This document shows positions 62,256 to 64,000 of a stretch of 64,000 nucleotides of DNA, piece after piece (the first letter of the stretch is position 1; every line of letters begins with the position of its first letter). Under the pieces are notes generated by a model. The model was not told where the DNA came from, ran no database searches, and worked only from the letters and a program-made list of their open reading frames with translations. A program made the translations under genes and the position numbers. The DNA is taken from NCBI GenBank assembly GCA_013368445.1, contig JAACJO010000001.1, positions 2,914,001 to 2,978,000 of the forward strand, written 5' to 3'. This DNA comes from Leucocoprinus leucothites. Its lineage: Eukaryota; Basidiomycota; Agaricomycetes; Agaricales; Agaricaceae.

Positions 62256-64000
62256 ATGGCGGAAGCAACTGAGCCCGCTGTTAAAAACCATAAATCCCAC
62301 AGAAAAGACAAACGTTAGTTCTGATTAGACACAACAAAATTTCGATTCTAACCATTCAGTGTAGCCTGGGACACAGACGATATTGACCAGTACGCCTATT
62401 CTCACTCCTCGTAAATTTTCTGGTGTCTGATATCCCACTGCTCTTCAGCGTGAGCCCACCGACCTTTCTGCCTTTCAGAGTCTAATCTCGATCCTGCTAG
62501 TGGAAAGTCGACCCCTTCACCCAAGCGGATAACAAAGGCGGTGCCTTTACCGAGGAATCGTCCTTCGCTACTCTGTTCCCGAAATACAGGGAAAAGTATC
62601 TGCGAGAAGTGTGGAGTGCTGTAACGAAGGCCTTGGAGACGCATGTGAGCATAGCTGTTTTCTTCTCGATTTGATGAACATATGTGAAATTTCCGATGTA
62701 CTCTCTACCCTACTCTTTATACCAACAGGGCATTGCATGTACACTTGATCTTGTCAACGGCTCAATGTCCGTCCGAACGACGCGCAAGACCTTCGACCCT
62801 TACATCATTCTCAAAGCACGCGACATGATCAAATTGCTCGCTCGCGGCGTAGCCATTAACCAGGCTGTGAAGATTCTTGACGACAACATGGCGTGCGATA
62901 TTATTAAAATCGGAAGTCTGGTGCGGAATAAGGAGAGATTCGTGAAACGCCGGCAGAGGATTATAGGGCCGGATGGCAGTACGTTGAAAGTGCGTGTTTT
63001 TGAAGAATTCGGCTCCGTGCTAGGCTGACCTAGAAATCCGATGCAGGCGATCGAACTGCTTACACAGTGCTATGTCCTGGTGCAGGGAAGCACAGTCAGT
63101 GTGATGGGACCATTTAAATCCCTGAAGGAGGTGAGGCGGATAGTGCTTGACTGTATGAAGAACGTTCATCCTATCTATCGAATCAAAGTAAAGTCTTATC
63201 TTCGCTGACCTGAAACGTGCCGTTGTTGAATTGAATTTCAGGAACTCATGATCAGGAGGGAGCTCGCAAAAGATCCCAAACTAGCAAACGAATCTTGGGA
63301 CCGTTTCCTTCCCCAGTTCCGTAAACGCCACCTCAAAACCTCAGAAAAGACTGCAAAGAAAAACGAGAGGCTACAGTCAAAAGCCGAGGCTCGGACGGCT
63401 GCCGGTCTGGCAGCAGATGTAGAAGAGGCGAAGAACGAAATGAAGAAAGAGAAGGCAAAGAAGGTGTACACGCCGTTCCCACCGGCTCAGCAACCTCGCA
63501 AGGTCTGTATTGTTTCGATCATTCTTTGATCAACAATGGTCCGTCCTGCCAAGCCCAGGGCAGCCCATAGGTTCTGCGGTGTGCTTTTAATAGCTCTTCC
63601 GTTAACGATTGGCAGGCCAGGAACGTGGTGGCTCCAACCCTCTCATACACTTAACTCTTTCGGAGCGATTACTCACCATGCTCTCCTCAATAGGTCGATC
63701 TTCAACTCGAATCAGGAGAGTATTTCCTCAAAGCGCACGAGAAAGAAGCACGAGAAACACAGTGGCGGAAACAAAAGGTCAGATTTTCTTCACCCTAACT
63801 AGAACTTAGAAACGCTCATCAAGACCCTGCATTACTCAGCAATTGGAAACCACGGCGAAACGAAAACAGGAACGGGCCGAGCCATTCGTCGCTCCTGCAG
63901 AGAAAGCCGAGCTTCCTGTGGAGGAACGACTCAAAAGGAAGCGCTCTACTGTGGACTCTGGTTTCGACAAAGACAAAGAGGCGACAGAGAGGTCCGGCTC
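62256..64000 (+). CDS. KRR1: KRR1, small-subunit processome KH protein (3' truncated by window)
   Basis: Nucleolar factor for 18S rRNA processing. Exons: 62256-62313, 62365-62389, 62449 (one base), 62501-62644, 62729-62989, 63047-63187, 63242-63502, 63694-63777, 63840 onward. Reads [27 protein letters not shown](H)[87 protein letters not shown], then the KH region [60 protein letters not shown], and [20 protein letters not shown]. The one-base exon is required to keep frame. The reading is open at base 64000. Confidence 0.93.
62449..62449 (+). other. candidate one-nucleotide exon in KRR1
   Basis: Intron 62390-62448 (59 nt, GTACGC...TTCAG, CTGATA branch-like motif) ends directly before C62449. 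Intron 62450-62500 (51 nt, GTGAGC...GCTAG, CTAATC branch-like motif) starts directly after it. CA + C + TGG gives His-Trp and continues as WKVDPFT in the family frame. Confidence 0.7.

Follow-up and report, generated by a model that had tools for sequence, protein, structure and literature searches.

The window, i.e., the whole stretch of 64,000 nucleotides that was analysed, corresponds to bases 2914001-2978000 of contig C1 in a 47-Mb assembly of an Agaricaceae-like genome. Close to its right edge, a gene starts at position 62256 on the + strand and ends 49 bases past the window, and its model was completed with DNA of the same contig beyond that point. Composed of nine exons and eight introns (609 nt of intron in total), the model encodes a protein of 394 aa, in which both Krr1 KH domains (PF17903 and PF21800) score above the Pfam cut-offs and which matches the Krr1 chains of the PDB from yeast (E 5e-132), Chaetomium (3e-118) and human (2e-110). 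Since both Krr1 KH domains are present and the similarity to Krr1 covers the whole length, this gene is KRR1, a component of the SSU processome. Among the matches listed, the closest public relatives come from Macrolepiota fuliginosa (84%), of a genus placed by taxonomy look-up in the Agaricaceae, Agaricales, followed by Agaricus bisporus and Leucocoprinus birnbaumii (82%). An 801-base KRR1 probe found one match in the 47-Mb assembly, a search that is uninformative on diverged copies. Of note, a divergent neighbour lies on the - strand at 61200-62052, where 99 translated residues match Pfam NCBP3 (PF10309, E 5e-11), namely nuclear cap-binding protein subunit 3. The start codon of this neighbour, likely at 62052, stands about 200 bp from the KRR1 start at 62256. 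The features of KRR1 are as follows.

62256 to 62313, + strand: exon 1, with the start codon at 62256; ends in phase 1
62314 to 62364, + strand: intron 1, 51 nt, GTTAGT...TGTAG
62365 to 62389, + strand: exon 2, a 25-nt microexon encoding P-WDTDDID plus CA; matches WDTDDID of yeast and Chaetomium Krr1
62390 to 62448, + strand: 59-nt intron preceding the 1-nt exon, GTACGC...CTGAT...TTCAG
62449, + strand: 1-nt exon, a C that completes the codon CAC of His28
62450 to 62500, + strand: 51-nt intron following the 1-nt exon, GTGAGC...CTAAT...GCTAG
62501 to 62644, + strand: exon 4, WKVDPFT...LETH
62729 to 62989, + strand: exon 5, end of the first KH domain and start of the second
63047 to 63187, + strand: exon 6
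63242 to 63502, + strand: exon 7
63694 to 63777, + strand: exon 8, 84 nt, VDLQLES...
63840 to 64000, + strand: exon 9, truncated at the window end; 49 further bases lead to the end of the stop codon

Two other introns of the gene present some peculiarity. Intron 1 ends with two AGs 5 nt apart, namely TTCAG at 62359 and TGTAG at 62364; use of the former would place a TAG in frame, so that the latter must be used. The intron at 63503-63693, before VDLQLES, is two to four times longer than the others (191 nt), exhibits no CTRAY motif and could hide a complex intron.

Exon 2 ends in phase 2 (..GAC CA) at 62389 and the conserved KRR1 frame restarts with TGG at 62501, as stated by the first-pass annotation and confirmed in the sequence. 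The intervening 111 nt (62390-62500) consist of a 59-nt intron, C62449 and a 51-nt intron, both introns being GT-AG, i.e., a single base stands between the canonical acceptor TTCAG and the canonical donor GTGAGC. Each intron further possesses a branch-like motif, namely CTGAT in the first (A 18 nt from the intron end) and CTAAT in the second (A 15 nt from the intron end); the two ordinary introns proposed earlier, GTACGC/CTGAT/TTCAG and GTGAGC/CTAAT/GCTAG, were thus found as described. Besides the 1-nt exon between them, their sizes of 59 and 51 nt are normal for the gene, the other six KRR1 introns measuring 51-191 nt. Once joined, GAC CA/C/TGG (slashes marking exon boundaries) spells Asp-His-Trp and the protein reads DIDHWKVDPF. 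Skipping C62449, i.e., joining 62389 to 62501 over a single 111-nt GT-AG intron, shifts the frame with a stop after 68 residues, which bears out the frameshift anticipated for this case; keeping the second intron brings a stop after 39 aa and keeping the first one after 35 aa.

To bridge the gap, one- and two-intron solutions with GT-AG, GC-AG or AT-AC ends were enumerated, keeping exon 2 at its start and allowing no intron shorter than 25 nt, and were filtered for absence of a stop and presence of the downstream ADNKGG motif. The frame is kept by 37 solutions, of which 1 produces DIDHWK. GT-AG introns alone are used in 2, both with C62449 as a 1-nt exon: with donor 62390 the product is DIDHWKVDPF, and with donor 62411 seven residues are added. 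Solutions with a single intron are either GC-AG from 62394 (DIDQYWK) or AT-AC with deletion of conserved residues; no single canonical intron among the enumerated solutions yields the same protein. C62449 as a 1-nt exon is the sole all-GT-AG way to hold the KRR1 frame without extra residues, in agreement with the earlier proposal that this base is left alone and that CA+C+TGG, read as His-Trp, restores the frame. Moreover, a protein search retrieved a public predicted protein, P0001, identical to the model over all 394 aa, meaning that the public prediction already carries His-Trp at this junction.

The chance of such a motif was estimated with 5000 dinucleotide shuffles of the 111-nt gap, bearing in mind that the motifs were picked after the sequence was seen. 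AGNGT with at least 45 nt on either side is present in 182 of the 5000 shuffles, which means the bare motif is not rare, and it occurs 239 times on the + strand of the 64-kb window. Requiring YAG and GTRNG in addition leaves 6/5000 shuffles, and requiring CTRAY in both halves as well leaves 1/5000, for motifs chosen post hoc. As such, a bare AGNGT is weak evidence; the full double-intron signal set at a place where the frame needs a base is not, the need for this base being set by the reading frame independently of the splice motifs.

Relatives of the protein were considered through the best 120 of 6875 matches, which comprise (i) the protein itself, (ii) 21 rows from lgn/jgi sources only, taken from their labels as environmental or read-assembled contigs, and (iii) 98 annotated rows with an ncbi source, taken as Agaricomycetes by their names, six of which were checked in the taxonomy. 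Among these matches, 21/21 environmental rows have His between DID and W (DIDHWK). For 15 of them, the longest contig exceeds the ORF by less than 609 nt, the summed intron length of the window gene (by less than 300 nt in 14/21), and these rows are therefore most likely spliced cDNA, although an intronless gene could mimic a cDNA-sized row; the other 6/21 contigs, with 627-7600 nt beyond the ORF, could be genomic. The 98 annotated rows are divided into 34 with His, 32 with Gln, 24 with inserts, 7 garbled and 1 with no residue, i.e., 64/98 depart from His, 32 of these by inserts, garbling or a missing residue. Differences in length affect 30/98 annotated models at the C62449 junction and 0-2/98 when six further intron junctions are measured in these proteins, and none is found in the 21 environmental rows at any junction measured. 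The orthologue comparison that the first-pass annotation had expected to be informative on conservation of the double intron thus speaks in its favour at the protein level. Yeast and Chaetomium Krr1 have exactly one residue between DID and W. In an ascomycete control (120 relatives retrieved via Chaetomium Krr1, assigned to Ascomycota by given names, some rows having none), Lys occupies the position in 120/120 (118 by pattern and 2 by eye), with 0/120 length differences in the five stretches measured. A mixed profile search aimed at basal Agaricomycetes and the rest of the Basidiomycota brought up, among the rows listed, Ascomycota and Agaricomycetes whose orders were already represented; no fungal KRR1 was present in viral or prokaryote contig collections, the one match being an archaeal protein 26% identical.

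Close relatives disagree with each other. Of three Agaricus bisporus models, 94-97% identical, one has Q, one H and one is garbled; in Suillus, models with Q, HT, HYFSLYLSS and H coexist, the differing pairs being 93-98% identical, and Suillus-like environmental rows read H in 5/5. Two Peniophora proteins from the mixed profile search read Q and HVRS. The most economical reading would be one shared AG/C/GT exon mended differently by annotation pipelines. In a genome reading CA, then GT...AG, then TGG, the third base of CAC has no contiguous place, and Gln could be the outcome of laying this cDNA base against the G of a donor or acceptor, i.e., CA plus a splice-site G (CAG). Gln is found in 0/21 environmental rows and in 32/66 clean annotated models (Fisher p = 1e-5, rows treated as independent); with the five Suillus-like environmental rows collapsed to one, 17/17 are His (H vs Q, p = 1e-4). 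Judging from these proteins, the Gln excess in annotated models fits an annotation artefact, while some Gln may be real and a different gene structure may lie behind part of the 34 clean His models.

The inserts themselves are suggestive of the sequence they would derive from. Overall, 38 rows were flagged as odd; P0070 (pattern at an earlier motif, reads Q) and the Ascomycota P0242, P0243, P0253 and P0272 are not odd. Should an annotation splice to AG/C and then read through into a GTRAGY or GTRCGY donor, H-V-[RSK] is expected, an expectation formulated on proteins only, with no codons; in the window itself, continuing the translation past C into the second intron gives DIDHVS. Odd models starting with His number 20 (19 of the 98 rows plus P0288), and H-V-[RSK] is found in 8/20 (7 of these within the 98, with P0288 from the mixed profile search), for about 1.6% expected per row by amino-acid composition (P about 5e-10, the class having been named after the rows were seen). 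The genera concerned are Agaricus, Amanita, Pluteus, Volvariella and Blastosporella, which we take to be Agaricales, Trametes (Polyporales) and Vararia (Russulales), both placed by taxonomy look-up, and Peniophora, presumably Russulales. Inserts occur also in Piloderma (Atheliales) and Suillus (Boletales), and Gln in Rickenella (Hymenochaetales). Likewise, where the first intron begins with a GTAY or GTGY donor, read-through is expected to give Gln followed by Y or C, which is the case for 4/11 odd models starting with Gln. Of note, some of these models depart elsewhere too: P0005 (Leucocoprinus birnbaumii) misses the 28 residues that exon 8 encodes and has garbled sequence following DIDH, so that its model looks wrong twice, and P0110 (Athelia sp.), P0111 (Sphagnurus paluster) and P0118 (Amanita inopinata) are also wrong at the preceding junction DK/PWDTDD, where a 25-nt exon 2 microexon seems to have been missed or mended as well.

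These observations can be confronted with other explanations. In the first instance, a single GC-AG intron of 107 nt (62394-62500) would keep the frame, with the junction GACCAGTAC-TGG and the protein DIDQYWK, and annotated relatives do exist with QYW (P0109, Mycena pura) or QCW (P0009 and P0096). This is nonetheless very improbable: the donor TAC/GCCTAT is far from the GC-donor consensus, the added residue conflicts with yeast, Chaetomium and 21/21 environmental relatives, all having exactly one residue between DID and W, and P0001 has DIDHWK. Secondly, an assembly error or a real one-base deletion, the true gene having one intron and an intact adjoining codon, would account for a one-base deficit in one genome. 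It would not account for inserts at the same place in separate models of Russulales, Atheliales, Boletales and Polyporales, for Gln in a fifth order (Rickenella, Hymenochaetales), for the garbled Agaricus model and, more generally, for 64/98 models departing from His, nor for a complete second set of splice signals in the gap, seen in 1/5000 shuffles; we give it very little credence.

Thirdly, all 111 nt could be excised, be it in the form of a single intron or of a stwintron (nested intron), with ribosomal frameshifting or insertion editing of the RNA then repairing the frame. Fungal stwintrons do provide an example of two consecutive reactions at one intron position (PMC6616335). Full removal, however, breaks the frame, with a stop after 68 aa, and the cDNA-sized environmental rows keep the frame and carry His, making this scenario exceedingly improbable. 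The stwintron class itself was considered and rejected, since no internal intron splits a donor, branch or acceptor and both donors and acceptors are whole. As for a real exon with its upstream donor at 62411 (GTAAAT), the sole other all-GT-AG solution, it leaves a 38-nt intron, adds seven residues absent from 21/21 environmental relatives and differs from P0001, so that it deserves hardly any belief.

We thus consider with high confidence that KRR1 has in C62449 a genuine single-nucleotide exon, used constitutively and flanked by two short U2-type introns that are probably removed in turn. The finding is real at the sequence level and corresponds very probably to a working one-base exon, which the frame and splice signals indicate would be spliced in this species. 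The one-base exon is probably common to several Agaricomycete orders and old, rather than an oddity of one species, and the conservation of AG/C/GT across Agaricomycetes that this implies is what we infer from proteins.

With respect to mechanism, the two short U2-type introns would be spliced one after the other, leaving GAC CA/C/TGG. A U1 site covers about 3 exonic and 6 intronic bases. U1 bound to the second donor would therefore cover the upstream acceptor AG (AG C GTGAGC), making simultaneous use of both sites unlikely, and as the two sites are hardly usable at once, removal is probably sequential. Since both introns are short and complete, each is recognisable across itself and would probably be recognised in this way, either order leaving a spliceable intermediate. 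The computed U1 pairing amounts to -1.7 kcal/mol for donor 1, the second weakest of the 8 KRR1 introns, and to -5.4 kcal/mol for donor 2 before intron 1 removal and -4.7 after it, i.e., without gain. U1 pairing was considered as a clue to an obligatory splicing order and, with these values (-1.7 vs -5.4/-4.7 kcal/mol), gives no support to it; the stronger donor 2 may simply go first. Because the three incomplete products considered carry early stops, inefficiency of splicing would cost KRR1 output. Going further, the exon might predate the split of the main Agaricomycete orders and have been kept since, and the double intron might serve as a splicing-efficiency gate, unproductive RNA adjusting the supply of KRR1 and with it small-subunit assembly; this reading, which builds on two splice sites excluding each other and on every incomplete product having an early stop, is unlikely as a whole and offered as a speculation.

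As far as the open-licence literature searched goes, neither Basidiomycota nor any ribosome-biogenesis gene would have had a single-nucleotide exon described before this one. It suggests that fungi with short introns splice one-base exons even in an essential gene, although such an exon leaves no room for recognition across it. It also offers one simple cause for the clashing KRR1 N-termini in public mushroom genomes, and the signature, namely Gln or H-V-[RSK] inserts, would be a possible search handle for more one-base exons in protein databases. Among open-licence PMC papers, no one-base exon was found for a basidiomycete or for KRR1; in their available parts, PMC4014442 and PMC3990503 mention microexons as a mapping option only and PMC12511879 contains KRR1 in a reference only.

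Several known systems can be compared with the one-base exon of KRR1. In plants, one established case is the single-nucleotide exon of APC11 in Arabidopsis and most land plants, an A within a 422-nt gap, documented by mutation, cDNA sequencing and a GFP reporter (PMC4674806, PMC8831610). Like that of KRR1, it consists of one base between two spliceosomal introns, is essential to the frame of an essential gene, was unannotated and is conserved. Unlike it, APC11 is a plant gene with an A in a 422-nt gap shown experimentally, whereas KRR1 belongs to fungal ribosome biogenesis, with a C between introns of 59 and 51 nt deduced from sequence. The 1-nt microexons of VPS55 and APC11 are conserved across land plants and absent from annotations (PMC8831610); VPS55 thereby resembles KRR1 as a conserved 1-nt microexon missed by annotation, in its case the reference annotations, but is a plant gene with alternative transcripts in some lineages (PMC8831610).

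One-base exons are also described in mitochondria, namely in fungal rnl (rnl-576/577; PMC12308204) and in placozoan cox1 (PMC5436844). As in KRR1, one exonic base stands between two introns, but the setting is an organelle and the fungal rnl introns are group II and not spliceosomal (PMC12308204). The fungal stwintron shares with the KRR1 double intron two consecutive splicing reactions at one intron position; it differs in that its internal intron splits a splice element of the external one, whereas in KRR1 each intron is complete and a single base stays behind between the two (PMC6616335). A fungal precedent is the Fusarium CYP621A single-nucleotide exon, AG/G/GT, reported in February 2026 with 18 SRA reads and for which the authors state that nearly all gene models are wrong at the exon (PMC12940212). 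The first-pass annotation had held one-base exons to be nearly unreported in fungi and had called upon plant APC11 to argue that they can exist: the plant precedent stands, and the near-absence in fungi is to be amended in the light of CYP621A and its RNA reads (PMC12940212). CYP621A resembles KRR1 as a fungal nuclear gene with a short gap (139 nt in F. graminearum), a single base lying within a conserved motif and a phase conflict as the clue. While CYP621A is a P450 gene of one ascomycete genus with a read-supported AG/G/GT, the KRR1 exon belongs to Basidiomycota, reads AG/C/GT and apparently extends over several orders.
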